From Candidatus Accumulibacter phosphatis (GTDB lineage: Bacteria > Pseudomonadota > Gammaproteobacteria > Burkholderiales > Rhodocyclaceae): DNA of 64,000 nt. The position numbers and the translations under genes were made by a program. The DNA lies in contig NZ_SPMY01000024.1 of the NCBI RefSeq assembly GCF_012939955.1, forward strand, positions 1 to 64,000, in the 5' to 3' direction. The notes beneath the pieces are model-generated. The model was not told where the DNA came from. It ran no database searches and saw only the letters and a list, made by a program, of their open reading frames with translations. Position 1 is the stretch's first letter. Each line of letters starts with the position of its first letter. Positions 21,504-42,062 of the stretch are shown here, one piece after another.

Positions 21504-22772
21504 ATGGGCAAGCTGACTGACTTGGATATTCGGAACTGGATGAGGAGCGGCGAGCGCTTCGAACAACGGGGCGACGGAGACGGGGTATATCTGTGCTTTC
21601 CCGCTCGGTTCGCCGTGCCGGTCTGGAAGTTGCGCTATCGTTTCGCTGGCAAACCTCGCACGGTGAACCTTGGCAGTTACCGTGACTTGTCAATTGCTGA
21701 CGCCAGAAAGACGGCCAAGGAGCTACGCGCGCGGGTTGCGTTGGGCTATGACGTTGCCGGAGAAAAGCAGGAGCGCAAGCGCGAGGCTGTCGCCAAGATC
21801 GAGGCTGAGAAGGCGGTCATTACCATGGGCGCGTTGGCCGATGACTACTTCTCGTCTCAAATTCTTGGACGCTGGAAACATCCCAACATCGTGCGCAGCC
21901 GGATCGAGAACGACATCAAGCCGAACATTGGGAAGCTGGCCATAGGAGAGATACGACCAACGCACGTTGACGCGATGCTCAAGGCTATCGTCAGGCGGGG
22001 TGCTCCGACGATGGCGAATGATGTCCTGCGTTGGGTCAAGCGAATGTTTGACTACGCCATCAAGCGCCAGATGATCAGCTTCAATCCGGCGGCGGCTTTC
22101 GATCTGGCGGATGCTGGCGGCAAGGAGGAGTCCCGCGACCGCTGGCTTACCCGTTCGGAGTTGGCCGCCCTGTTTGCTGCGATGCGAAGCGCGCGAGGAT
22201 GGAATATCGAGAACGGCCTGACGGTGAAGCTGCTACTGCTGTTGGCGGTTCGCAAGGGCGAACTGATACAGGCAAGGGTTAGTGAATTCGATCTCGACGC
22301 GGCCGTTTGGTATCTGCCAGCCGACCGGACAAAAACAGGTGCGGCGATTGACATCCCTCTCCCTAATCAAGCTGTTGCGTGCCTGCGTGAGCTTGTGCGG
22401 TTGGGCAACGGGTCTGGATGGCTGCTACCGGCGCGCAAGATGCAGGAGCGCATGGTCCCTCATATCGACCTCAACACCGTTGGCGCCGCGCTTGCGAAAA
22501 ACATCAAGCCTTTGATGCCCGGCGCAGAGAACTTCACGTTGCATGACTTTCGGCGCACGGCGCGCACTCACTTGGCCGCGCTGGGGGTGGCACCGCATAT
22601 CGGCGAGCGCTGCCTGAATCACGCTATCAAGGGCGTGGAGGGCATCTATAACCAGCACGATTTCTTCGACGAACGCCGGGAGGCACTTCAGAAGTGGGCC
22701 GACCTACTCGATGTGATTGCAGGCGACGAGCAGGGCAAGGTCGTACCGCTCAGGCCGGCGAAGATGGCTTGA
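21504..22772 (+). CDS. int: Tyrosine recombinase / P4-type integrase
   Basis: This 422-residue site-specific recombinase has the P4-type layout. An N-terminal arm-binding region contains WKLRYRFAGKPRTVNLG and YRDLSIADARKTAKEL, followed by a SAM-like core-binding domain and a catalytic domain. Catalytic residues visible are Arg in LLAVRKGEL (about 250), the HDFRRTARTH box (about 345-354) and the tyrosine nucleophile in GIYNQHD (about 382). CAGGAGG precedes ATG 21504. No tRNA adjoins it, so the target is the yicC-gmk interval itself. Confidence 0.92.
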   Translation: MGKLTDLDIRNWMRSGERFEQRGDGDGVYLCFPARFAVPVWKLRYRFAGKPRTVNLGSYRDLSIADARKTAKELRARVALGYDVAGEKQERKREAVAKIEAEKAVITMGALADDYFSSQILGRWKHPNIVRSRIENDIKPNIGKLAIGEIRPTHVDAMLKAIVRRGAPTMANDVLRWVKRMFDYAIKRQMISFNPAAAFDLADAGGKEESRDRWLTRSELAALFAAMRSARGWNIENGLTVKLLLLLAVRKGELIQARVSEFDLDAAVWYLPADRTKTGAAIDIPLPNQAVACLRELVRLGNGSGWLLPARKMQERMVPHIDLNTVGAALAKNIKPLMPGAENFTLHDFRRTARTHLAALGVAPHIGERCLNHAIKGVEGIYNQHDFFDERREALQKWADLLDVIAGDEQGKVVPLRPAKMA

Positions 22773-23886: not shown

Positions 23887-24311
23887 GCCAAGTCGACAAA
23901 CTGCTTCAGCGTCTCGACAAGGTGAAGCGCACCGGGCTCGGGACGTTCTCTGCGCGCTGTCCTGCACATGACGACCGCGGGCCAAGCCTTGCGATTCGCG
24001 AAACCGACGACGGGCGAATCCTTGCGCACTGCTTCGCCGGGTGCGACGTGCAAGACGTTTTGTCCGCTGTCGACCTGACGTTCAGCGACCTGTACCCACC
24101 CCGGGCGCTCGATCACCGGATTAACCCGGAGCGCCGGCCATTCCCTGCGGCCGATTGCCTGCGCGCTGTTGGTTTTGAGGCGCTGGTCGTCTGCGCTGCA
24201 GCGGCGGCGATGCTGGCCGGCGAGCCGTTCAGCGAGATTGACCGCGAACGGCTGATTCTTGCTGCAAGCCGCATTCAGTCGGCGATGCAGGCAGCGGGGT
24301 TATCGTCATGA
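23883..24311 (+). CDS. CHC2-like zinc-finger, primase-type protein
   Basis: This 142-residue protein resembles the zinc-binding N-terminal domain of phage and plasmid primases. Putative ligands are in ARCPAHDDRGPSLAI (Cys, His) and ILAHCFAGCDVQDVLSAV (two Cys), matching a CHC2-type ribbon. No Toprim or polymerase domain follows; the second half is a helical tail. It would cooperate with the helicase encoded immediately downstream (4-base overlap). It could also be only the DNA-recognition part of a split primase-helicase. Confidence 0.7.
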   Translation: MSQVDKLLQRLDKVKRTGLGTFSARCPAHDDRGPSLAIRETDDGRILAHCFAGCDVQDVLSAVDLTFSDLYPPRALDHRINPERRPFPAADCLRAVGFEALVVCAAAAAMLAGEPFSEIDRERLILAASRIQSAMQAAGLSS

Positions 24312-25582
24312 GCATTCTTCAACGCACAATTCGTCAACGAGAAGAATCTACGTCCAGACTCGAAGACGTGGCCGAACGCATGCGTGGCGCAAGGCCAGAG
24401 CACCGGCCGAGCAAGGAAGCCGCGCCAGAGCGCGAATACGCGGGGACTGTGCAGATTAGCAGAGCCAGCGACGTGAAGATTGAGCCGGTATCGTGGATCT
24501 GGAACGGATGGCTGGCGGCTGGGAAGCTTCAGATCCTGGGAGGCGCACCAGGTACCGGGAAGACGACGATTGCCATGAGCATGTCGGCGGCGCTGACGGC
24601 CGGCGGACGCTGGCCGGATGGCACCCGCGCAAGCGTCGGCAACGCCGTGATCTGGAGCGGCGAAGACGACCCGGCCGATACGCTGATTCCGCGGCTTGTG
24701 CTGTCCGGCGCCAATCTGTCCCGCGTGCATTTCATTGACGGCGTGCAGGAGGGCCACGAGAAGCGATCATTCGACCCGTCGAAGGATATGCCAGCGCTGC
24801 GGCGCAAGCTGCTGGAAATCGGCGACGTTCGCTTGCTGGTCGTCGATCCGATCGTTTCGGCAATTGCCGGCGACAGTCACAAGAACGCCGAAGTGCGGCG
24901 CGGACTTCAACCGCTCGCCGACCTGGCCGCGTCAATGAAGTGTGCGCTGCTCGGCATCACTCACTTTTCGAAGGGTACAGGCGGCCGGGATCCGGTAGAG
25001 CGCATTACCGGAAGCCTTGCCTTTGGCGCAGTCGCACGCATCGTGCTGGTCGCTGCAAGGCAACAGGAAGAGGCGGAAGACGGGCGCACCGTGCGTCTGC
25101 TGCTTCGCGCCAAGTCAAACATTGGACCGGACGATGGCGGCTTCGAGTACGACTTGCAACCGGCCGAACTGAAAAGCCATCCAGGTATCTTCTCGTCATC
25201 GGTGCAATGGGGTGTTGCCGTCGAAGGGGCGGCGCGCGATCTGCTTGCCACGGCCGACGCGACCGGCGACGACGCCGGTGGCGGGAGTCCGCTTGCTGAT
25301 GCAATGCACTTCCTTGAAGTGGAACTTGCGGAAGGCGCACGGGCGGTGACCGAGTTGGAGTCGGCTGCGGGTAGCGCCGGCCATTCATGGGCGACCGTTC
25401 GGCGAGCAAAAAAGGCGCTGAAAATTGAAGCGCAGAAAGGCGGAATGAAAGCCGGCTGGGTGTGGGAGCTACCACGAAGGTGCTCAAGTAGTAGCGAAGA
25501 TGCTAACAAAAAAGGGTTAGCGCCTTCGGGAAGTGTTGAGCACCTTCGTGGCGATCAAAGCATTGTCGAGGTGGAGATATGA
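24308..25582 (+). CDS. RepA-like AAA ATPase / replicative helicase
   Basis: This 424-residue protein is of the AAA_25/RepA hexameric helicase type. Walker A is ILGGAPGTGKTTIAMSMSAA (about residues 76-95), the WSGEDDPADTLIPRL motif follows, and Walker B is VRLLVVDPIVSAIAG (about 176-190). LGITHFSKGTGGRDPVERI is the typical sensor region, and a winged-helix-like segment lies near residues 335-375. It presumably unwinds the element origin. The last 35 codons are unusual: the DNA there forms a large nested inverted repeat (25472-25551), so the protein tail is repeat-encoded. Confidence 0.82.
   Translation: MSILQRTIRQREESTSRLEDVAERMRGARPEHRPSKEAAPEREYAGTVQISRASDVKIEPVSWIWNGWLAAGKLQILGGAPGTGKTTIAMSMSAALTAGGRWPDGTRASVGNAVIWSGEDDPADTLIPRLVLSGANLSRVHFIDGVQEGHEKRSFDPSKDMPALRRKLLEIGDVRLLVVDPIVSAIAGDSHKNAEVRRGLQPLADLAASMKCALLGITHFSKGTGGRDPVERITGSLAFGAVARIVLVAARQQEEAEDGRTVRLLLRAKSNIGPDDGGFEYDLQPAELKSHPGIFSSSVQWGVAVEGAARDLLATADATGDDAGGGSPLADAMHFLEVELAEGARAVTELESAAGSAGHSWATVRRAKKALKIEAQKGGMKAGWVWELPRRCSSSSEDANKKGLAPSGSVEHLRGDQSIVEVEI
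25472..25551 (+). repeat. Nested inverted repeat with four iteron-like units, inside the helicase gene
   Basis: CCACGAAGGTGCTCAA (25472-25487) has a perfect inverted copy at 25536-25551. Inside, CGAAGATGCTAAC (25495-25507) pairs with GTTAGCGCCTTCG (25516-25528) with one mismatch. The arm itself holds a tandem: CGAAGGTGCTCAA then CGAAGATGCTAAC. The 80 bases thus contain four versions of CGAAGRYGCT-AA, two in each orientation. An iteron-type origin or protein binding site is a reasonable reading; it could also be a mobile palindrome. Confidence 0.6.
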
Positions 25583-30591: not shown

Positions 30592-32814
30592 GTGGATCCA
30601 GTGGTCACCGCGAGCATTTCAGCTGCCCCAGCTGAGCTAGCGGTGGCTGACAAGCCCTCGGACTTCCTCCCTCCCGAGGATGATCCCGCGTACAGCGTCT
30701 TCATCGACAGCCTGAATTACCTGTCGGAGGACGAAATCAATCTGGTTCGCAAGGCCTATCTGTTTGGCGAGGAAGCGCATCGCGGACAGGTCCGCAAGTC
30801 GGGAGAGCCGTATATCACGCATCCCCTGGCGGTGGCCGGCGCCATCGCCGAGTGGAAGATCGACGTCGAGGGAGTGGTCGCTGCACTGCTGCACGACGTG
30901 ATGGAGGATACGGCGGTCAGCAAGGCCGAGATCGTCGAACACTTCGGCAAACCGGTCGCTGACCTGGTCGATGGCCTGTCGAAACTCGACAAGATCGAGT
31001 TTCAGTCGCAGGAAGATGCGCAGGCCGAGAACTTCCGCAAGATGCTGATGGCCATGGCACGCGACCTGCGCGTGGTGCTGATCAAGCTGGCTGACCGCCA
31101 CCACAACCTGCAGACGATGGCGGCGGTTCGCGTCGACAAGCGCCGTCGCATCGCCCGCGAGACGCTGGAAATCTATGCGCCGATTGCCGGTCGGCTGGGC
31201 CTCAGTACGCTTTTCAACGAGCTGCAGGATCTGTCGTTCCAGCTGATCTACCCGATGCGCGCGCGTGTTCTTGGGCGCGCCCTGAAAGCGGCGCGTGGCA
31301 ACCGGCGCGAGTTGCTGTCGCGGATTCTCGAGGGCATCAAGGGCAAACTGAACGCTGCCGATATCGAGGCGCAGGTTTTCGGTCGCGAGAAGAGTCTCTA
31401 TTCGATCTATCGCAAGATGCTCGACAAGCGCCTGTCGTTTTCTCAGGTGCTCGATGTTTACGGATTTCGCGTCGTCGTCAAGGACGTGCCCACCACCTAT
31501 CTCACCCTCGGTTCGCTGCATGCGCTCTACAAGCCGGTGCCGGGGAAGTTCAAGGACTATATAGCCATCCCCAAGCCGAACGGCTATCAGTCTTTGCACA
31601 CCACCTTGATCGGTCCGCACGGGACGCCGTTCGAGGTGCAGATTCGTACGGCGGCGATGGACAAAGTGGCGCAGGAAGGGATCGCTTCGCACTGGTTGTA
31701 CAAGGGCAGCGACTCGCTCGGCGAAGCGCTGCAACAGAAAACGACCAAGTGGTTTCACTCTTTGCTGGAGCTGCAGAGTTCAACCGGTGATTCCTCGGAG
31801 TTCCTCGAACACGTCAAGGTCGACCTCTTCCCGCACGAGATCTACGTCTTCACCCCGAAGGGCAAGATCATCGCCTTGCCGCGCGGTGCGACGGCGGTCG
31901 ACCTCGCTTACGCCGTGCACACCGATATCGGCAATCACAGCGTCATTGCCCGGGTCAACTTCAACCTGGTGCCTCTGGCCACCGAGCTTGTCAGTGGCGA
32001 TAGCGTCGATATCGTTACCGCAGCCGATGCCCACCCGAGTGCCGAGTGGCTGACGCACGTCAAGACGGGTCGGGCGCGCAGCAAAATTCGCCACTACCTG
32101 AAAACGGCGCACCAGGACGAGTCCACGGCGCTGGGTGAAAAGATGCTTGGGCAGGAGTTGCGGGCGCTTGGCATCAGCGCCTCCGAGGTGCCAGTGGCGC
32201 GCTGGAGGAGTGTGCTGCGCGATTCCGGAAACCGACTGGTCAAGGAGGTCTACACCGACATTGGGCTCGGTTTCCGCCTGGCCGGCGTGGTCGCTCGCCG
32301 CCTGTTGAACAAGGAGAGCGCGTCGCTGCCTGCCGACAAGAGCAAGCCGGGCAGTTCCCTGGTCATTCGTGGCAGTGAAGGGATGGCTGTTCAGTTTGCG
32401 CCCTGCTGCCAGCCGATCCCCGGCGATCCGGTCATCGGTTCGATCTGGAAGGGCAAGGGGCTGGTGATTCATACCCATGATTGCCCTGCGATCCGCAGAG
32501 CCCGCAAGGCCAGACCGGCGAAGTGGATCGATGTCGAGTGGGCGCCGGAAGCGGGCCAACTGTTCAGTGTCCGCCTGCAGGTCGTGGTCCAGAATACCCT
32601 CGGTGCCTTGGGCAGGATTGCCACCGAGATATCCAGTTCCGGAACCAATATTCTGAATGTCCACATGGACGAAAAAGACTCCGGGCTGTACACGACCTTG
32701 CATTTTACGGTCCAGGTCGCTGATCGCACCTCACTGGCGCGCCTGATGCGCAGCCTGCGCCGCATTCCCGAAGTGGTCCGTATCGCTCGCGAGCAAGGGC
32801 TCCCGGCGGCCTGA
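30592..32814 (+). CDS. spoT: Bifunctional (p)ppGpp synthetase/hydrolase
   Basis: This long RelA/SpoT homologue has 740 residues. The HD hydrolase is intact (AHRGQVRKSGEPYITHP, LLHDVMEDT with HD at 101-102, and DRHHNLQTM). The synthetase region has FRVVVKD, KDYIAIPKPNGYQSLHTTLIG and the EVQIRT motif. The TGS domain (VFTPKGKIIALPRGATAVDL), the Cys-containing region FAPCCQPIPGD and a C-terminal ACT domain follow. Both activities are therefore expected. GTG 30592 is the start; alternatives downstream exist. Confidence 0.94.
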   Translation: MDPVVTASISAAPAELAVADKPSDFLPPEDDPAYSVFIDSLNYLSEDEINLVRKAYLFGEEAHRGQVRKSGEPYITHPLAVAGAIAEWKIDVEGVVAALLHDVMEDTAVSKAEIVEHFGKPVADLVDGLSKLDKIEFQSQEDAQAENFRKMLMAMARDLRVVLIKLADRHHNLQTMAAVRVDKRRRIARETLEIYAPIAGRLGLSTLFNELQDLSFQLIYPMRARVLGRALKAARGNRRELLSRILEGIKGKLNAADIEAQVFGREKSLYSIYRKMLDKRLSFSQVLDVYGFRVVVKDVPTTYLTLGSLHALYKPVPGKFKDYIAIPKPNGYQSLHTTLIGPHGTPFEVQIRTAAMDKVAQEGIASHWLYKGSDSLGEALQQKTTKWFHSLLELQSSTGDSSEFLEHVKVDLFPHEIYVFTPKGKIIALPRGATAVDLAYAVHTDIGNHSVIARVNFNLVPLATELVSGDSVDIVTAADAHPSAEWLTHVKTGRARSKIRHYLKTAHQDESTALGEKMLGQELRALGISASEVPVARWRSVLRDSGNRLVKEVYTDIGLGFRLAGVVARRLLNKESASLPADKSKPGSSLVIRGSEGMAVQFAPCCQPIPGDPVIGSIWKGKGLVIHTHDCPAIRRARKARPAKWIDVEWAPEAGQLFSVRLQVVVQNTLGALGRIATEISSSGTNILNVHMDEKDSGLYTTLHFTVQVADRTSLARLMRSLRRIPEVVRIAREQGLPAA

Positions 32815-32984
32815 ACCTGGAAACAGCCGTTGAGCCAGCATTCCCTTTTCCCAGTGTTTCCCCTCGCTCTCGCGGAAGCGCATGCCATGCCTTCGCGCAT
32901 CCCCTGTTGCGAGCGAGCCTTCCGGCGGCTTGCACCTTACCCGCGCGGCTTTCTCGGCGCAGCTGCGCCGCAGCGGTTTTCGGC

Positions 32985-34220
32985 TTGAAAGTTGTCGTCC
33001 TCGGCGCCGGCGTTGTCGGCGTCACCAGCGCCTGGTATCTGGCCCGGGCCGGGCATCAGGTGACGGTACTGGAGCGCCAGGCGGCGGCCGGCCTGGAAAC
33101 CAGCTTTGCCAATGGTGGCCAGATTTCGGTTTCGCACGCCGAGCCGTGGGCCAACCCGCATGCACCGCTGCGCGCCCTGGCCTGGATGCGCCGCGAGGAC
33201 GCGCCGCTGCTGTTTCGTTTGCGCTGGGATGCGTGCCTGCTGGACTGGAGTCTGCGCTTCCTGCGCGAGTGTACTGCGCGGCGTACGCGCGCCAACATGC
33301 GCGACATCGTCGCACTGGCTTTGTACAGCCGCTGCCAGTTGCAGGCGCTGCGCGCCGAAACCTCGCTCGACTATGACCATCTCGAACGTGGCATCCTGCA
33401 TATTTATACGGATCGACGCGAATTCACGGTCGCCAGTGCGGCCGCGGCAGTGATGCGTGGCTTTGGTTGCGACCGGCAAACGGTGAGCGTTGACGAGTGC
33501 CTGGCCATCGAGCCGGCGCTCGCTGCAGTACGGCAGCGACTGGTCGGCGGGGACTACACCATCGACGATGAATCCGGCGACGCGCACCGCTTCACGCAGC
33601 AACTCGCCGCCCGCTGTGCGGCGAACGGTGTCGTTTTTCGCTACGCTGCCAAGATCGACCGCTTGCTTGCCGCGGGCGGCCGCATTGCGGGTGCCTTGGT
33701 CGGCGGCGAGTTGCACCAGGCCGACGCCTACGTCGTCGCGCTGGGCAGCTACACTCCCCTGTTGCTGCGCCCGCTTGGCCTGCGTTTGCCCATCTATCCG
33801 GCGAAAGGCTACTCGGCGACGGTTGCGCTTGGGGCACAGAGCATCGCGCCGAGTGTCAGCCTCACCGACGATGGCCACAAGATCGTGTTTTCGCGCCTTG
33901 GCCAACGCCTGCGCATTGCCGGAACCGCCGAGTTCAATGGCTACAATACCGAACTCAACAGCATCCGCTGCGACGCCCTGATGCGCCGGACCAGAGAGCT
34001 CTTTCCCGACTTGCGACCAGCCGCCGAGGCCGAATTCTGGTGCGGGCTGCGCCCGGCCACGCCATCCAATGTGCCGCTGATCGGACGCTCGCCAATCAGC
34101 AATCTATACCTCAACACCGGTCACGGTACGCTTGGCTGGACGATGGCCTGTGGCTCGGGCGCTGCCCTGGCCGACATTGTCAGTGGCCGCAAGCCTGAGC
34201 CGCCTTTCCGCTTCCTTTGA
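32985..34220 (+). CDS. dadA: D-amino acid dehydrogenase small subunit-like FAD oxidoreductase
   Basis: This DadA-type flavoprotein of about 411 residues is expected to oxidise D-amino acids and pass electrons to the quinone pool. FAD motif is VVVLGAGVVGVTSAWYLARA. SFANGGQISVSHAEPWANP is the DadA signature, and GLRPATPSNVPLIG with LNTGHGTLGWTMACGSG closes the FAD site. I prefer TTG 32985 (KVVVLGAG) because relatives begin there; the frame is open to 32907 without protein-like sequence. No adjacent alanine racemase is seen. Confidence 0.82.
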   Translation: MKVVVLGAGVVGVTSAWYLARAGHQVTVLERQAAAGLETSFANGGQISVSHAEPWANPHAPLRALAWMRREDAPLLFRLRWDACLLDWSLRFLRECTARRTRANMRDIVALALYSRCQLQALRAETSLDYDHLERGILHIYTDRREFTVASAAAAVMRGFGCDRQTVSVDECLAIEPALAAVRQRLVGGDYTIDDESGDAHRFTQQLAARCAANGVVFRYAAKIDRLLAAGGRIAGALVGGELHQADAYVVALGSYTPLLLRPLGLRLPIYPAKGYSATVALGAQSIAPSVSLTDDGHKIVFSRLGQRLRIAGTAEFNGYNTELNSIRCDALMRRTRELFPDLRPAAEAEFWCGLRPATPSNVPLIGRSPISNLYLNTGHGTLGWTMACGSGAALADIVSGRKPEPPFRFL

Positions 34221-34238
34221 TCCAGGCGAGGCTTGAGC

Positions 34239-35082
34239 ATGCTGGTTGATACCCACTGCCACCTTGCCGCAGCGGCGTTCGCCGACGATCGCGATGCGGT
34301 GCTGGCGGCGGCCGCAGCCGCCAGCGTTTCGGCAATCGTCGTCCCGGCCGTCGATGTCGCCAGCTTTACCGCGGTGCACGCCTGTTGCCAGCGCTACCCC
34401 GGCTGTGTGGCGGCCTACGGCATTCATCCGCTTGCCGTCCAGCACGCCAGCGACGCCGATTTGGGGCACCTGCAGAAGTGGCTGCAGCAGCTGCCCGCCG
34501 GATCGGATCGGCCGGTCGCCATCGGCGAGATTGGCCTCGATCTGTTCATCGCCGATCCGGCGCTCGACCGCCAGGAGCACTTTTTCATTGAACAACTGAA
34601 GATCGCCCGAGCATGCGATCTTCCGGTGCTCCTGCACGTTCGCCGTGCTGTTGATCGGGTGCTCAAGCAGCTCCGCCGGATCCGCGTCAGGGGCGGCATC
34701 GCGCATGCCTTCAACGGCAGTCGCCAACAGGCGGACGAGTTCATCAAGCTAGGCTTCAAACTCGGTTTTGGCGGCGCCATGACCTACTCCGGCTCGACGC
34801 GTATTCGTCGCCTGGCCGCGTCCCTGCCGCTGCAAGCCATCGTCCTCGAAACCGACGCCCCGGACATGCCACCGGCGTGGCTGGCGGGGGGGGAGGAATG
34901 CGCCCGCCGAGTTGCCGCGGATCGCTGCCTCGTTGGCCGGCCTGCGCGACATGGGTGTCGCCGATCTGGCCGACGCGACTTCGGCCAACGCGCACGCAGT
35001 TCTGCCTCGGTTGCGTTTGATTGGCCGATCGGGTACGTTAGCGCCTGACGGCTTCGGGCTTCCGATATTTCGCAGCGAGTGA
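34239..35082 (+). CDS. TatD-family hydrolase, interrupted by a one-base frameshift
   Basis: This is a metal-dependent hydrolase of the TatD DNase family. Metal motifs are LVDTHCHL, YGIHPLAV, AIGEIGLDL, LPVLLHVRRA, GIAHAFNGS and IVLETDAPDMPP. At the eight-G run (34886-34893) the frame shifts. With one G fewer the sequence continues as RNAPAELPRIAASLAGLRDM and DLADATSANAHAVLPRL, the normal TatD C-terminus, and ends at TGA 35080-35082. Uncorrected, the tail is unlike the family. I treat it as one gene with a probable sequence error. Confidence 0.8.
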
Positions 35083-35231
35083 GCAGCGGGCCAATGAATA
35101 ATGAATGATGAATGAGCAGGACGGGAGAGCGGTGCTTCTCTGGGCAGCGCAAGGCTAATGCGTAAGCCTCGGTCAAGCTTATCGCTCTGCCATCGCCTCT
35201 TGCTGAAAACAACCATTGCCAAGCTCTCATA
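35083..35231. other. Intergenic region upstream of rquA
   Basis: The segment contains a short low-complexity stretch of tandem AATGA/ATGA words (about 35094-35113). No gene is seen. The rquA promoter should lie here; TTGCCAAGCTCTCATA just before the ATG is AT-richer, but no confident promoter could be assigned. Confidence 0.35.
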
Positions 35232-35985
35232 ATGAAAAACCAACTGGATCGACCGGCGGCTACGTGCGTGGCTGTCAAGGACAGCCTCCCTGACATACCT
35301 CACTATCTGCAAGCGCATTACTGGTGGGCCTATGTCCATCCGCGGGCGGTGCATATATTCGAGCGGCAGTGGCTGGTAAATCTGATTCTCTGGGGCAATT
35401 ACAAGCGTTTGTGCAATGCCGTGCTGCACGACTACGGCCACGATTTGGGCGGCCGTACGCTGCAGATTGCCTGTGCCTACGGTGACCTGACGCCGCGGCT
35501 GGTGGACTGCGTGGCGCCGGGTGGTTCGCTCGAGATCGCCGATATCCTGCCGATCCAGCTCGAGAATCTGGCCAAGAAATTGCCGAAGGATGCGCCCGTC
35601 CAGCTGCATTGCATGGATTCGGCGGCGCTTGGCTTTGCCGACGCGAGTTTCGACCGTGCATTACTGTTCTTCCTGCTGCACGAGCAGCCGCAGGCGGTGC
35701 GCGAAAAAAACGCTCGCCGAGGCGCTGCGGGTGGTGCGTCCGGGTGGCACGCTGACCATCGTCGACTACGCGCCGCTCAGCAAAATGAATCCCATGCGTT
35801 ACCTCTGGAAGCCGGTCCTCGACCGGCTCGAGCCCTTTGCGCACGACCTGTTCAGTGAACAGGTCACTGCCTGGTTGCCGAAAGACAGTTCCTTCGTGAG
35901 CGTCGGCGATCAGCGTTTCTTCGGTGGTATGTATCAAATGTTGACGCTCAAGATTGTTGGCCCGCAGGCAGGCTCGGCAAGCTGA
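35232..35985 (+). CDS. rquA: Rhodoquinone biosynthesis methyltransferase-like protein RquA, one-base frameshift
   Basis: RquA converts ubiquinone to rhodoquinone, replacing a methoxy with an amino group. The protein has the family-specific stretch YLQAHYWWAYVHPRAV, ERQWLVNLILWGNYKRL, the atypical SAM motif QIACAYGDLTPRL instead of a GxGxG loop, and RALLFFLLHEQPQAVREK. After a seven-A run (35704-35710) the frame shifts. With one A fewer it continues TLAEALRVVRPGGTLTIVDY, LEPFAHDLFSEQV and RFFGGMYQML to the TGA at 35985. It lies 102 bases upstream of frdA. UbiE-type methyltransferases lack the YWWAY and LLFFLLHEQP motifs. Confidence 0.87.
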
Positions 35986-36012
35986 CGCGTGCATAATCAG
36001 CCGGCCCTGCGC

Positions 36013-36028
36013 CAGGAGCGTGCTCCTG
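36013..36028 (+). other. Small hairpin between rquA and frdA
   Basis: CAGGAGC and GCTCCTG form a perfect 7-bp stem around GT, without a T-run. It may stabilise or attenuate transcription between rquA and frdA. Confidence 0.35.
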
Positions 36029-36087
36029 CGGGGCTTCTCGGATTGTTGGTCGCGCCTGGCAATGGCCGGCGTGAGAAAGGATGAAGC

Positions 36088-37874
36088 ATGGAGAGTTACA
36101 AGGCAGATGTAGTGATTGTGGGCGGCGGCGGAGCCGGCCTGCGGGCCGCCATCGCTGTGGCGGAGTCTGATCCTGCCCTCAAGATCGCGCTGATCTCGAA
36201 GGTCTATCCGATGCGTAGCCATACCGTGGCCGCCGAAGGCGGCTCGGCAGGTGTGAAACTGCCCACCGATAGCCTCGAGTACCATTTCAACGACACCGTC
36301 GGCGGTGGCGACTGGTTGTGCGAGCAGGATGTGGTCGAGTACTTCGTTGCCCACTGCAACGAAGAGTTGACCCAGCTCGAGCACTGGGGTTGCCCCTGGA
36401 GTCGCACCCCGGACGGGCACGTCAATGTGCGCGCTTCGGCGGCATGAAGATCGAGCGCACCTGGTTCGCCGCCGACAAGACCGGTTTTCACATGCTGCAC
36501 ACGCTCTTTCAGACGTCGATCAAGTATCCGTCGATCAAGCGCTTCGACGAGCATTTCTGCGTCGATCTGGTGGTCGAGGACGGTCGTGTCCAGGGCGTCG
36601 TCACCATCGAGATCGGCTCCGGTGAGATGGCACTGGTCGAAGGAAAATCGGTGGTCATCGCCACCGGCGGCGCCGGGCGCGTCTTCCGCGAGAACACCAA
36701 TGGTGGCATCGTCACCGGTGACGGCATGGCCCTGGCCTACCGCCACGGCGTGCCGCTGCGGGACATGGAGTTCGTCCAGTACCACCCGACCTGCATGCCC
36801 GGCACCGGGCTGCTATTCACCGAAGCCTGCCGCGGCGAAGGCGGTTTTCTGGTGAACAAGGACGGCTATCGCTACCTGCAGGATTATGGTCTCGGCCCGG
36901 CCGAGCCTTCACCGCGCAACAAGGCCATGGAACTTGGCCCGCGCGATCGCCTCAGCCAGGCTTTCTGGTACGAGCAGCAAAAGGGGCGCACCATCGAAGG
37001 CCAGCACGGCTCGGTCGTCCATCTCGACCTGCGCCACCTCGGCGAGGCCAAGCTGCGCGAGCGCCTGCCGCAGATTTACGAGCTCGCCGAGCAGTTTCTC
37101 GGCGTCGATCCGGCGCGCGCGCCGATCCCGGTGCGACCGGCGGTGCACTACACCATGGGCGGCATCATGGTCGACGGGCTCTGTGCGTCGCCGCTGCCGG
37201 GCCTCTATGCGGCCGGTGAATGCTCCAGCGTCGGCATCCATGGTGCCAACCGTCTGGGTTCGAATTCGCTGTCCGAGCTGTGCGTTTTCGGCAAGGTCGC
37301 CGGCGAGGAAGCGGCGCGTTTCGCCAAAGCGGTGGCGCCGGGCAATTCGGCCAGTCTGCTCAAGCAGGCGCAGGCGGTTGAACAGCGACTCGTCGGGCTA
37401 AAGATGAAAACCGGCGGCAGCGAGCGCATCGCCACGCTGCGCAAGGAAATGGCGCAGACCATGGAGGACGGCTGCGGCATCTATCGCCTGGCCGAGACCA
37501 TGCAGCAGACCTGCAACAAGCTCGACGAGCTCAAGGAGCGTTTCAAGGACGTCAATGTCGAGGACAAGGCGAGCGTCTGGAACACCGAGTGGCTACTGGC
37601 CATCGAACTCGAGTACCAGCTCGACGTAGCGCAGACGATGGCCTATTCGGCCCTCAATCGGCGCGAGTCGCGCGGTGCGCACCAACGTCTCGACGGTTTC
37701 GAGAAACGTGACGACGAGAACTTCCTGAAGCACTCGCAGGCGCATTATGTCGCCGGCGGCGCGCCGCGCATCGACTATGGCGCGGTCAAGATTACCAAGT
37801 CGCAGCCGGGCACGCGCGCCTACGGTGCTGCAGGCGAAAAGGCAGAGCAGGAAAGGAAGGCATCCAATGTCTGA
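36088..37874 (+). CDS. frdA: Fumarate reductase flavoprotein subunit FrdA, one-base frameshift
   Basis: This catalytic subunit reduces fumarate to succinate on covalently bound FAD. FAD motif [10 protein letters not shown] is at residues 11-20 and the flavin-linking His is in [11 protein letters not shown] (H45). Active-site regions are [19 protein letters not shown] and [10 protein letters not shown]. The first frame stops at 36447; a missing C near 36432 (GTGCGCG for GTGCGCCG) would join it to the second half as [19 protein letters not shown], as in E. coli FrdA. Sequence and the separate frdC/frdD anchors mark this as FrdA rather than SdhA. The end overlaps frdB by 8 bases. Confidence 0.93.
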
Positions 37875-38622
37875 AAATCAGAGAATCATCGAAATCGAGG
37901 TGCTGCGCTACAACCCGGAGACCGACAAGGAGCCGTCCAAGCAGGTCTTCGAGGTACCTTTTACGGACGACATGTCGGTCTTGCAGGGCGTGCAGTACAT
38001 CAAGGACTATCTCGACGGCTCGCTGAGCTTCCGCTGGTCGTGCCGGATGGCGATTTGCGGCAGCTGCGGGATGATGATCAACGGCGAACCCAGCCTCTCC
38101 TGCGAGACTTTCCTGCGCGACTACTACCCGGCGCGGGTGCGTGTCGAGGCGCTGGCGCATTTCCCGATCGAGAAAGATCTGGTCATCAACATGGAGGGCT
38201 TCATCGAGAAACTCGAAAGCATCCAGCCCTACATCATCCCCAAGGAAGAGCGCACGCTGGCGCAAGGCGAGTATCTGCAGACGCCCGCGCAACTGGCGAG
38301 CTATGAGCAGTTCAGTTCGTGCATCAACTGCATGCTGTGCTACGCCGCCTGCCCGCAGTTCGGACTCAATGCAGAGTTCATCGGACCGGCCGCGATGGCC
38401 CTGCTGCACCGCTACAACATCGATTCGCGCGATGCTGGCAAGGCCGAGCGCATGGAGTTGGTCAATTCCGAAGAGGGGGTGTTCAACTGCACTGCGGTTG
38501 GCTACTGCTCCGAGGTTTGCCCGAAGCACGTCGACCCGGCCAACGCCGTCAACCAGAACAAGACCAATAGCGCGGCCGATTATTTCCTGCGCTTCCTTAC
38601 TCCGAAGGGGGGTGCCAAGTGA
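37867..38622 (+). CDS. frdB: Fumarate reductase iron-sulfur subunit FrdB
   Basis: FrdB carries electrons from quinol to FrdA. The 251-residue protein holds the [2Fe-2S] ligands in [13 protein letters not shown] plus SLSC (C59, C64, C67, C79). The [4Fe-4S] motif is [12 protein letters not shown] (C152, C155, C158), and the [3Fe-4S] ligands are C162 with C208 and C214, then CPKHVDP (C218). These are complete for a three-cluster subunit. The start ATG 37867 lies inside the 3' end of frdA and its stop overlaps the frdC GTG. Confidence 0.95.
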
Positions 38623-39017
38623 ACAAGCGTCGTCCCTATGTTCGTCCAATGGCCGGATGGTGGCGGAAAAATCCATTCTTCGTCGAGTACATGATTCACG
38701 AGGGAACCGCCCTCTTCGTGGCCGCCTATGCCCTGATCCTGCTCACCGGACTGGTTTACCTTTCGCGCGGCGAAGCGGCCTGGAACATCTGGCTCGAAGG
38801 TCTGAAAAACCCCTGGTACATCGCTTTCCACTGGCTGACGCTGGCGGCGATGTGCTACCACACCTACACCTGGTTCAAGATCATGCCGCGGACCATGCCG
38901 CCGGTCATCGTCGGCGGAAAACGACTGCCGGATTTTGCAATTACCGGTAGCGGGCTAGCCGTCGCCGCGACCGCCAGCCTTGCCATGCTGGGCCTGGTAT
39001 GGGGGATGGCACGATGA
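38619..39017 (+). CDS. frdC: Fumarate reductase membrane anchor FrdC
   Basis: This 132-residue, three-helix anchor begins [20 protein letters not shown], very like E. coli Frd[19 protein letters not shown] follows in the middle helix region. With FrdD it binds the quinol and anchors FrdAB at the cytoplasmic face. No heme ligand pattern typical of SdhC is seen. GTG 38619 overlaps the frdB stop; its own stop overlaps frdD by ATGA. Confidence 0.92.
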
Positions 39018-39382
39018 AAAAGACACTGAAACGTTCCAACGCTCCCATCTTCTGGGCGCTGTTCGGCGCTGGCGGCATGCTGTCGGCGCTGCTTGGCCCG
39101 ATCCTGGTGTTTATCACCGGCCTGGCCGTTCCGCTCGGCATGCTACTGCCGGCCGACACCATGAGCTACGCGAACATGCTCGCTTTTGCCCAGAACATTA
39201 TCGGCAAGGGCTTCATCTTCGCGATCATTTCGCTCTTTCTCTGGCACGCAGCCCATCGCATCTTTCACAGTCTGCACGACGTCGGTATTCACGCCGGTAT
39301 CGTTGCCAAGCTGATTTTCTACGGTGGGGCCATGGTCGGGACGCTGATCACCGCCTATACCTTGCTGGCCATCGGTTTCTAG
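39014..39382 (+). CDS. frdD: Fumarate reductase membrane anchor FrdD
   Basis: This 122-residue protein has three transmembrane helices and the FrdD features KRSNAPIFWALFGAGGMLSA near the start, AFAQNIIGKGFIF, and HAAHRIFHSLHDVGIH. It completes the FrdABCD tetramer. Start ATG 39014 overlaps the frdC stop. About 120 bases of non-coding DNA separate it from the convergent PilZ gene. Confidence 0.92.
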   Translation: MKKTLKRSNAPIFWALFGAGGMLSALLGPILVFITGLAVPLGMLLPADTMSYANMLAFAQNIIGKGFIFAIISLFLWHAAHRIFHSLHDVGIHAGIVAKLIFYGGAMVGTLITAYTLLAIGF

Positions 39383-39502
39383 CTGTCGGGGGTGTAAAGC
39401 GTAAAGCGGGGTCGGGTACGCCGTAAGGCTGCCCGGCCCCGTGGTCATTCTGTCATGGCGAAGAGGCGTCGCCGACGTGGCAATCCAGTCCCCTCCTCTC
39501 GC

Positions 39503-40306
39503 CTAGGTCATGCCGCTGAGGCGGGCTTTGCGTTCGCGTTCGACGCGCGTGATGTAGCGCTGCACCATGCTCATCCTGGCTCCGGGTATGGCCACGAACT
39601 CGCAGCCGACGCGAACGTAGCGTGCGCCGCCGCGGGTCGTGACGTCGAACTTGTTGCGTATACACAGATTGGCGACCAGCAGACCCTCGTCGGGAAGTGT
39701 CATCTTGCAGTCGCCGAGCACCATGCCGCTCGGCAGCAGGGCCGCCAGACTGGGCGTGGCCATCAGTCCGACACCGCCACCGCTGATGTCCAGCAAGGAC
39801 GCTTCGGCGATCAGCGTGCTACCGTCCATGCGCTTGATCGTGGTGACGAACTTGACCGGTTTGGCGATCGGTGTCGACAGGCGGAAATACTCGCGACGCT
39901 GCAAGCGCAGCACCTTGTCGGGAAGCGCCGCGCGAAAAGCCGGGCGACCATCGCAAAGCGTCTCGGCAAGCTGGGTCAGGGTAAACTGCACCTTGACCTT
40001 GTCCACCATCGCGCTCAGGACGAGCTGGCTGGCCTGCAGCGCCTGGCGATTGACCGCGTCGTCGCGACCACAGTCGAGGACCAGTTCGCCGTTGCCCGCG
40101 TCGATCTCCAGCAGCGAGGTCAACAGGAAGTCCCTACCATGATCGAGATAGGCGCTGACCAGCGCTCGTCGTTGAATCAGCGAACGCAATACGGCCACAA
40201 TTTCGGCTTTCGAGTGCAACAGATACTCGCTGTAATCCTCGGCCTGTTCGATTTCGAGGCTGCGGGTTTCCTCTTTCCGTCTCGGCTCAAGGTCCGTATT
40301 TTCCAT
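39503..40306 (-). CDS. ycgR: Flagellar brake protein YcgR-like (PilZ domain)
   Basis: This 267-residue cyclic di-GMP effector has an N-terminal YcgR-type domain (about 25-135), then a PilZ domain. The c-di-GMP motifs are RLQRREYFRLSTP and LDISGGGVGL. In enterobacteria YcgR slows the flagellar motor when c-di-GMP is high. Proximity to the flagellar cluster fits that role. Start is the ATG ending at 40306. The frame upstream covers repeat DNA and is not coding. Confidence 0.87.
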   Translation of the reverse strand: MENTDLEPRRKEETRSLEIEQAEDYSEYLLHSKAEIVAVLRSLIQRRALVSAYLDHGRDFLLTSLLEIDAGNGELVLDCGRDDAVNRQALQASQLVLSAMVDKVKVQFTLTQLAETLCDGRPAFRAALPDKVLRLQRREYFRLSTPIAKPVKFVTTIKRMDGSTLIAEASLLDISGGGVGLMATPSLAALLPSGMVLGDCKMTLPDEGLLVANLCIRNKFDVTTRGGARYVRVGCEFVAIPGARMSMVQRYITRVERERKARLSGMT

Positions 40307-40416
40307 CTGCCTTCCTGCAAACGCCTGGAGCGGGAAGTTTAATGCAAAAGCGGGGTCGGGGTAAGCGAGCGTGGCGGCTTGCGGCGCAATTGTGAGCCTG
40401 CGTCGGCCCGTGCTCG

Positions 40417-40521
40417 GCTCCCCTCCACCCTGGTGGGGGAGGGGTTGGGGGAGGGGGGCTTTACTGCTTCTCTGCGCGCGCTTCCCTCCTCTCCCCAACC
40501 CCGCGAGGGGATAGGGGCTAT
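40417..40521 (+). repeat. Inverted-repeat element, family B copy 1
   Basis: A left arm beginning CTCCCCTCCACCC with GGGGGAGGGGTTGGGGGAG is followed by a short spacer. A complementary right arm CCTCTCCCCAACCCC follows, with GGGGATAGGGGCTATGGGCG at the end. Together they can form a long imperfect hairpin. The same layout and end occur at 46575-46713. It lies between the PilZ gene and the FlhB-like gene. Confidence 0.7.
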
Positions 40522-40538
40522 GGGCGGTGGCCGCCACG

Positions 40539-40865
40539 TCAGGGTTTGGCGGGAACTTCGGCAGGGGCTGCAAAGAGCGGTGGCGGGGTGGGCGTGGCGC
40601 CGTTTTCCAGTTGATACAGCCAGGCCAGCAACTCGGCGACAGCCAGGTAGAGCTGTGGGGGGATGTGCTGGTCGAGGTCGACCTGCATCAGCAGCGAGAC
40701 CAGCTCGGCCGATTCGTGTACGTAAACGCCGTGTTCGTGGGCGCGGGCGATGATCTGCTCGGCGAGCAGGCCGCGTCCCTTGGCGACGACGCGGGGCGCC
40801 GCGTCGGTCTGGCTGTAGGTCAGCGCGACGGCGTTTTTGAGGGAATTATCCGGCGCTTTGGCCAT
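40539..40865 (-). CDS. FlhB C-terminal-like protein
   Basis: This 108-residue protein matches only the cytoplasmic C-terminal domain of FlhB/YscU: NAVALTYSQTDAAPRVVAKG then RGLLAEQIIARAHEHGVYV, and IPPQLYLAVAELLAWLYQL. The NPTH autocleavage motif and the transmembrane domain are absent, so it is a stand-alone paralogue of the FhlB/FlhX kind, which can affect export specificity. It overlaps the fliK 3' end by 20 bases. Confidence 0.8.
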   Translation of the reverse strand: MAKAPDNSLKNAVALTYSQTDAAPRVVAKGRGLLAEQIIARAHEHGVYVHESAELVSLLMQVDLDQHIPPQLYLAVAELLAWLYQLENGATPTPPPLFAAPAEVPAKP

Positions 40866-42062
40866 GCTCCTCGCCTGCACGTGGTGCCGTGACGCCAAGC
40901 GAGGCGAGGTCGAGTCCGGCTTTTTCCAGCTGGCTGCGCAGGCCGGCCGTTTCGCTGCTCAACAGCTGCCGCGTTGCGGCGTCATTGGCGACGACGCTGA
41001 GCGTGATCTGCTGCCCCTGGATGTGCAGCCGGGCATCGACTTCACCCAGCCGGGGCAGGAACAGACGCAGTCGCGTCTGCCAACTCTCGCTGCTCGCCTC
41101 GCCTTCGCCATCGCTGTGCCGGCTGTGGTTGGCGTTGTCGATATCCCAGAGAACCTGCTGGCCGGGCCAGACCTGTCCCTGCCAGGAAAAATTCTGCGTC
41201 GCGAAAGCTTCGAGTTGCTGCTGGACGATGGCCTGCAGCTGCGGCGCGACCGCTGGCGGCGCTGGCGAGGAGGCGGCTGGCTGGCTGCTGAGGTTTGCCT
41301 GGCTGGCCGCCGTGGCGCCTCGGTTTGCGGCTTCGTTCGAGGCCGGCGGTGCTTGCGGCCTTGCGGCGGCTGCCGGCTCGCCGCTGTTGCGCGCCGCGGC
41401 GTTCTCACTGCCCGCCGCTGTCATCAGCCCTTGTTGGGCACTCGCGCCCTGCTGGGCAGGCGTCGTTGTCGGCGGCAACCTGCCTTGCGGTTCCTGCAGC
41501 AGCTGCGCCTTGCTGTAACGCCCTTCGACCCATTCCGCCTGATGCGCTTCGTAGAACATGCCACTCTGCACAATGGCCTGTTTGAGCAGCGGCAGGAGAT
41601 CGGTGCCGCTATTCGGCGGGCTGGCAGCAATCGCCTGTTTGCCGTTCAGCGGCAGTGCTACGGCGGCGCCGCCCTTGCCGTCACGCGCACCTGGGCCAGC
41701 AGCGTGCCGATCAGTTGCCCGGTGCGGCTCAACTGCGTGGCGGTCGATTCGTTCCCCGCCCTCCCTCCCTCCGCCGCGCCGCGGGCAACGACGGCCAGGG
41801 TCAGCTTGCCATTGCTCGCGGAGACTTCCAGCTCGATGGTGTCGCCGCTCTTGGCGGCAAAGGGCAGTGCCAGGGTGACGCTGCGCTGGTTGATCAGCGC
41901 GCGGTAGGTGCCGTTCGGCAGCAGAGCCTGCACTTCGGCCAGCAGGCGTTGGCCAGCGGCCAGCCCCGGTAACTTGTCGGTGATTTCCTGCGCTGGCGGC
42001 GTCGGCCGCAGGGCGAGGTCGGCGCTCGGCTGAACGCGGGTGCTGATTTCCGGGACGATCAT
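40846..42062 (-). CDS. fliK: Flagellar hook-length control protein FliK, one-base frameshift
   Basis: The N-terminal half (from the ATG ending at 42062) has LPGLAAGQRLLAEVQALLPN, TYRALINQRSVTLALPF and TQLSRTGQLIGTLLAQVR. It stops at 41658. The other half continues in another frame from DGKGGAAVALPLNG through a Pro/Ala/Gln-rich linker to the FliK C-terminal domain (LGEVDARLHIQGQQITLSVV, LEKAGLDLASLGV). A missing C near 41684 (GTGCGCG for GTGCGCCG) would join them into about 405 residues. FliK is secreted and stops hook growth by switching export specificity. Break probably a sequence error. Confidence 0.75.

Follow-up and report, generated by a model that had tools for sequence, protein, structure and literature searches.

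Candidatus Accumulibacter phosphatis, a phosphorus-removing wastewater bacterium, carries a predicted rhodoquinone synthase gene, rquA, directly upstream of the fumarate reductase genes frdABCD, and this locus probably represents a rhodoquinone-fumarate respiration cassette of Accumulibacter. The locus lies in a window of 64,000 nucleotides, the whole stretch of DNA that was analysed, which comprises the first 64 kb of contig C26 (NZ_SPMY01000024.1) from a genome assembly of 5.04 Mb in 149 contigs (97% completeness, 5% contamination). The rquA-frd pairing is kept by relatives even where the menaquinone pathway has been lost, and it offers a testable idea of anaerobic electron disposal. As described in the first-pass annotation, which had been made from the letters of the window, the frdA ATG (36088) follows the rquA stop (35985) after a gap of 102 bases, and neighboring frd genes overlap, with bases shared between frdA and frdB, frdB and frdC, and frdC and frdD (Table 1).

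The identity of the first gene was established by a curated family and a tree. The N-terminal piece of the protein alone exceeds the cut-off of the RquA equivalog NF038261 (180.8 vs. 175 bits), 25 copies from relatives also score above this cut-off, and all three motifs previously taken as RquA-specific are present in the reading frame beginning at 35232. In a tree of 89 rows, built by a quick method with only two outgroup rows, both on long branches, the window protein was placed among the Accumulibacter RquA proteins, such as those of Ca. A. meliphilus and Ca. A. regalis, and apart from the UbiE and UbiG proteins of its own genome, which are encoded as separate genes. The same grouping agrees with the first of two earlier guesses, an Accumulibacter-like or a Propionivibrio-like host. 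A misidentified UbiE was rejected by the NF038261 score, the separate UbiE and UbiG genes and the tree position, and the choice between RquA and UbiE/Coq5, for which the first-pass annotation had proposed a tree, falls to RquA. RquA is reported to convert ubiquinone to rhodoquinone with S-adenosylmethionine (SAM) as the amino donor, and the enzyme of Rhodospirillum rubrum to require two aspartates, D118 and D143 (PMC9814641). Similar to the R. rubrum protein described there, the Accumulibacter protein belongs to this curated family and possesses an altered SAM motif and both required aspartates, recognized by motif and a 25-residue spacing and not by alignment with the R. rubrum sequence itself; in contrast, the copy in the window is split in the assembly, and the activity of the Accumulibacter protein is a predicted one. 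The rquA product of the window presumably makes rhodoquinone from ubiquinone.

The downstream genes encode a fumarate reductase of the Escherichia coli type. The subunits A, B, C and D follow in this order, with FrdC and FrdD as membrane anchors; searches with FrdB, FrdC and FrdD returned the E. coli structure 1kf6 as the closest solved one; and by NCBIfam FrdB and FrdD are above the cut-offs, FrdC is below, and FrdA matches in two pieces. Compared with the E. coli enzyme (1kf6), the four subunits and their order are the same and five of the six quinol-site residues are kept, their roles in the quinol site being presumably those of the E. coli residues. The two differences are the position of rquA ahead of frd and residue 28 of FrdC, an arginine in E. 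coli, which is a histidine in all 20 Accumulibacter loci with FrdC among the best 80 of 291 rquA loci in named genomes (22 Accumulibacter-like and 58 others). This His28 might tune the quinol site.

Among 28 Accumulibacter genomes, including the one that contains the window, RquA above the cut-off and FrdD were each found in 26. RquA is missing from G003 (72% complete) and from G009, for which a loss is not claimed, since its frd contig stops before the rquA site. In each of the 26 rquA-bearing genomes, rquA adjoins frd, as seen in 24 loci that were read, in the window, and in G004, where the locus was not read and rquA and frdD lie ~3 kb apart on one contig. A tatD-like gene is the conserved 5' neighbor of rquA, and the order tatD, rquA, frdA in 24/24 same-genus loci read (with tatD in two pieces in L021) excludes a chance adjacency. 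The profile NF011991, which we take to represent UbiV of O2-independent ubiquinone synthesis, was matched in 27 of the 28 genomes.

Outside the genus, the association recurs in other forms. A neighbor search around the 80 rquA loci, with FrdA pieces and not the whole FrdA as a query, detected frd genes at 22/22 Accumulibacter-like and 12/58 other loci; many of the remaining loci are short, so that missing frd genes there say little. Gene order varies: rquA precedes frd in L088, L090, L123 and L131, frd precedes rquA in L091 and L138 as well as in G077, the genes are arranged tail to tail in L095, L104, L120, L124 and L127, and they lie ~3 kb apart on opposite strands in L096. These varied arrangements suggest that rquA and frd have been associated repeatedly. 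The spacing varies as well, from a gap of ~15 bases in L090 to genes that seem to overlap in L123.

Two of these loci, L088 and L090, belong to Dechloromonas. The L088 DNA matches that of Ca. A. meliphilus at 81.7% over 4.1 kb, from rquA to frdD, and the similarity of L090 over the same genes falls in two pieces; beyond rquA-frdD, blastn found no other similarity in the 16.7-kb stretches of L088 and L090, where tatD likewise had no match. Both RquA proteins nest inside the Accumulibacter clade, with support of 86–94, unstarred. Given that the similarity is limited to rquA-frdABCD between unrelated flanks, transfer of these genes as a unit between Accumulibacter and Dechloromonas looks like the simplest reading. 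The FrdC gene of L088 looks frame-shifted. The earlier suggestion that rquA and frd are co-inherited is strongly supported by the 26/26 linkage, the 24/24 gene order and the Dechloromonas block.

Several observations weigh against rhodoquinone-dependent fumarate respiration in this bacterium. The first concerns the assembly, in which neither rquA nor frdA runs in an uninterrupted frame. The RquA profile is matched over two frames (1–136, then 140–216) with a break near 35.71 kb, and the FrdA profile likewise (1–116, then 115–594) with a break near 36.43 kb. The designation "complete E. coli-type frdABCD" in the first-pass annotation thus holds for the type (NCBIfam, 1kf6), whereas the word "complete" does not strictly apply here, since rquA and frdA are split over frames in the assembly. 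A third frame change occurs near 34.89 kb at a run of eight G in the tatD-like gene, whose match ends at profile position 210 of 253. The three breaks delimit a 1.6-kb patch of suspect assembly. Within 29.7–39.4 kb they are the only frame-changing intragenic differences from Ca. A. meliphilus, the rest being intergenic, and all three were seen again in comparison with two further relatives. The rquA and frdA break points are read through in a single frame in 24/24 same-genus loci, which makes an assembly artefact likely, although a recent mutation also fits. Programmed frameshifting in rquA is ruled out by the single frame of the relatives at that point.

Alternatively, rquA, frdA and tatD could be real pseudogenes in this strain, so that a pathway conserved in the genus would be dead here. 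This scenario, which we consider unlikely, would account for three frame changes inside 1.6 kb in a genome where a profile search found no second RquA above the cut-off. It fits poorly with the clustering of the breaks, tatD included, and the location of two of the three at homopolymer runs, with the sequence after the breaks, which is still 93% (RquA) and 98.8–99.4% (FrdA) identical to that of the two nearest relatives, and with the intact frdB, frdC and frdD. It should be noted that the clustering, the homopolymer positions, the high identity after the breaks and the intact frdBCD are also compatible with a very recent mutation.

The second observation is the presence of genes for menaquinone, with which enzymes of this type are usually paired; the classical electron donor of an E. 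coli-type fumarate reductase is menaquinol. The search of the genome took in menF, menD, menE, menB, menC and menA, with menH outside its scope. MenD (contig C20), MenB (C25) and MenA (C44) are above the cut-offs, an isochorismate synthase (MenF) and a ligase scoring best to menE, below its cut-off, adjoin MenD, and MenC, above its cut-off, adjoins MenB. Classical menaquinone genes were reported for Ca. A. phosphatis in 2014 (PMC3914697). Fumarate respiration "without menaquinone", as proposed by the first-pass annotation, therefore fails for this genome, whereas it remains applicable to about half of the genus, namely the members that lack men genes and retain rquA. The combination that the same annotation had regarded as contradicting it, a complete menaquinone pathway with no detectable rhodoquinone, is present in its first half, a menaquinone pathway being encoded.

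Across the genus, 13 of the 28 genomes have menaquinone genes, defined by MenB and MenA above the cut-offs together with MenD either above the cut-off or truncated at the end of a contig (G000, G001, G008, G009, G013, G014, G015, G018, G022, G023, G024, G025 and G027, with edge pieces in G001 and G023). Another 13, in which the genes are absent or decayed, have neither MenD nor MenB above the cut-off (G002, G004, G005, G006, G007, G010, G011, G016, G017, G019, G020, G021 and G026); G010 among them is a single contig, and G006, G011 and G016 keep MenA. Two genomes were assigned to neither group, G003 with MenB only and G012 with MenD only in 820 contigs. All 13 men-negative genomes have rquA above the cut-off, and MqnC above the cut-off was found in 0/28, so that FrdABCD in these 13 genomes occurs without a findable menaquinol pathway.

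Remnants of the men genes were recognized in two species. In G011, the menB-menC site persists between its usual neighbors with a broken MenB and a 47-residue stub of MenC, and in G016 a MenB fragment lies beside the same kinase, with no MenC seen there. In both genomes the men loci have thus decayed in place and rquA-frd is intact. In a DNA tree of rquA-frdA (25 rows, with G012 unscored and G003, G004 and G009 outside), which is a locus tree and not a species tree, G011 and G016 fall, at starred support, within sets of species that have menaquinone genes, and the presence and absence of men requires at least four changes. Since all men-negative genomes keep rquA and men loci decay in place, rquA-frd appears as the stable part and menaquinone as the variable one; judged by gene content, the genes for rhodoquinone and fumarate reductase are a genus core, menaquinone is variable, and two of its losses are visible as remnants.

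In an order-level sample of 349 genomes, for which at least 90% completeness was asked and RquA was accepted at E up to 1e-40, RquA was found in 37, FrdD in 13 and MenD in 25. With the genome of the window excluded (348 genomes), RquA occurs in 6/12 FrdD-positive vs. 30/336 FrdD-negative genomes (one-sided Fisher test, 4.8e-4, a test that ignores kinship). MenD is present in none of the 12 FrdD-positive genomes, and six of them have neither RquA nor MenD, so this fumarate reductase can occur without either marker, which speaks against a tight rule. Alternatively, FrdABCD of this species could work mainly with menaquinol, rhodoquinone being a minor pool or serving another enzyme and the adjacency being a relic. 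The menF, menD, menE, menB, menC and menA genes of this genome and the classical preference of the enzyme type favor such a role, which is nevertheless hard to reconcile with the rquA genes kept in the 13 men-negative genomes, with MenD in 0/12 FrdD-positive genomes of the order and with two men loci decaying while rquA-frd stays; we regard it as rather improbable.

Three further points weigh against the rhodoquinone reading. FrdC His28 was discarded as a mark of rhodoquinone use, as other rquA-linked enzymes have arginine or methionine at this position. Rhodoquinone itself is so far a prediction from the genes of Accumulibacter. The third point concerns expression. The gap between rquA and frdA (window positions 35986–36087) contains two hairpins kept across Accumulibacter, and its consensus fold is 12.7 standard deviations below column shuffles, in an alignment whose row L019 ends short of its start codon. 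For hairpin 2, 93.5% of 168 cells are paired, compared with 23 to 55% in slid versions, and the covariation exceeds that in all 500 alignment shuffles; when the composition was shuffled per sequence, 0.05 to 0.50 of the shuffles reached the observed value. Hairpin 1 is terminator-like in the folds and was not listed by a consensus terminator scan. No known RNA family from Rfam was identified in 32000–42000, and no sigma-70-type promoters were found in 34800–39700, where 1.1 would be expected by chance. No FNR-type box with up to two mismatches was found within 260 bases upstream of rquA in 25 sequences. The terminator-like hairpin and the lack of an FNR-type box weaken the case for co-expression of rquA and frd. 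The hairpins may act as a processing or stability signal in the mRNA, through which rquA and frd could reach different levels, with a terminator after rquA as the alternative.

Under the rhodoquinone-fumarate reading, the locus would serve Candidatus Accumulibacter as a cassette for anaerobic respiration. In this scheme, RquA would swap a methoxy group of ubiquinone for a SAM-derived amino group, yielding rhodoquinone, and rhodoquinol would pass electrons to fumarate via the neighboring FrdABCD, as permitted by the reported potential of rhodoquinone (-63 mV), which is lower than that of ubiquinone (+100 mV) (PMC5953543). In combination with complex I or another dehydrogenase that reduces quinones, FrdABCD could dispose of NADH anaerobically as succinate, which would feed propionyl-CoA and storage polymer; electrons from anaerobic glycogen use would in this way be directed to succinate and propionyl-CoA. 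The scheme presumes that FrdABCD uses rhodoquinol in Accumulibacter, that rquA and frd are expressed together, that the flux of fumarate reduction matters in the anaerobic phase and that the frame changes in the window arose in assembly. Raised Accumulibacter frdAB transcripts under low phosphate were reported in one of two experiments of a study that assigned frd to the reductive branch (PMC12604563). A different quinol reductase was proposed to re-oxidise quinones in Accumulibacter (PMC4930944); this proposal and the rhodoquinone-fumarate route are compatible, and neither excludes the other.

A separate succinate dehydrogenase (SDH), which the first-pass annotation had advised looking for, is indicated by SdhA above the cut-off in the genome of the window and in 25/28 genomes of the genus, so that the fumarate reductase is rarely the sole complex II. 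G016 and G026, at 90% and 93% completeness, lack SdhA above the cut-off, perhaps through incompleteness, and possess rquA-frd; the third genome lacking it is G003, at 72%. That FrdABCD is a second SDH working with ubiquinone, with rhodoquinone used elsewhere, is very improbable: it would suit these three genomes and the Accumulibacter symbiont reported to depend on fumarate reductase following SDH loss (PMC13310139), whereas SdhA in the other 25, a low-potential quinone that favors fumarate reduction, and the low-phosphate rise of frdAB in one of two experiments with its reductive-branch assignment (PMC12604563) argue against it.

The general kind of linkage is already known, since proximity of rquA to respiratory complex genes, including complex II, was reported for Proteobacteria in 2018 (Stairs 2018, PMC5953543) and rquA was described as mostly betaproteobacterial in a 2024 quinone survey of Pseudomonadota (PMC11707229). 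Similar to Accumulibacter, the former report described a putative operon and, in many cases, another frd/sdh at a different site, and it listed Rhodocyclales among the orders; proximity there meant within 15 genes, whereas in Accumulibacter rquA and frd are direct neighbors throughout the genus, alongside menaquinone genes in half of the species. The survey likewise found rquA with O2-independent ubiquinone synthesis (73/84 genomes); however, rquA was accompanied by menaquinone genes in only 5/84 of its genomes, compared with 12/26 rquA-bearing Accumulibacter genomes. Neither Accumulibacter nor Dechloromonas is named in the main texts of these two papers, and a literature search, with most subscription journals outside its reach, found no link between rhodoquinone and Accumulibacter among the matches listed; of two papers containing both names, one has rhodoquinone solely in a cited reference and the other mentions Accumulibacter in connection with menaquinone. 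New, as far as seen, are the genus-wide core status of rquA-frd, its coexistence with menaquinone genes in half of the species, the decay of menaquinone genes in place and the Dechloromonas cassette.

In a broader scenario, to which we give even weight for and against, rhodoquinone would be the core quinone of Accumulibacter under anaerobic conditions. A cassette passing between phosphorus-removal bacteria would produce it next to fumarate reductase and for that enzyme, and it would render menaquinone dispensable, hence the repeated loss of menaquinone. If this is true, rhodoquinone would supply the electron carrier that is missing from anaerobic redox-balance models of polyphosphate-accumulating organisms; a 2025 transcript study discusses Accumulibacter frdABCD, and neither "quinone" nor "quinol" appears in its main text (PMC12604563). 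With rhodoquinone as the carrier, the step would be measurable, rhodoquinone would be expected in anaerobic sludge biomass, and it would be the sole low-potential quinone in men-negative species.

Table 1. Features of the rquA-frd locus and its upstream neighbor, in window positions.
Feature	Position	Strand	Evidence
tatD-like gene, upstream neighbor	34233..35048	+	Pfam TatD_DNase, 182.1 bits over profile positions 1-210 (of 253)
rquA, predicted rhodoquinone synthase gene, over two frames	35232..35985	+	NF038261 pieces 180.8 + 79.5 bits; tree
Hairpin 1 after rquA, putative terminator-like element or 3' stabiliser	36003..36034	+	Single-sequence and alignment folds
Hairpin 2, abutting the ribosome-binding site of frdA	36050..36074	+	Pairing, covariation, alignment A2
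frdA, fumarate reductase flavoprotein, frame change ~36.43 kb	36088..37874	+	PRK09231 pieces 1-116, 115-594
frdB, iron-sulfur subunit	37867..38622	+	PRK12385 427.8 bits (cut-off 333); 1kf6_B E 3.7e-100
frdC, membrane subunit	38619..39017	+	PRK04987 100.2 bits, below cut-off 143; 1kf6_C E 1e-21
frdD, membrane subunit, alternative starts 38999 and 39014	38999..39382	+	PRK05470 149.1 bits (cut-off 60); 1kf6_D E 5.5e-30

Farther upstream in the window, Pfam matches at 21504–22772 and 24308–25582 identify an integrase of the phage type and a protein of the AAA_25 family, which suggests an integrated element ~10 kb upstream of rquA.

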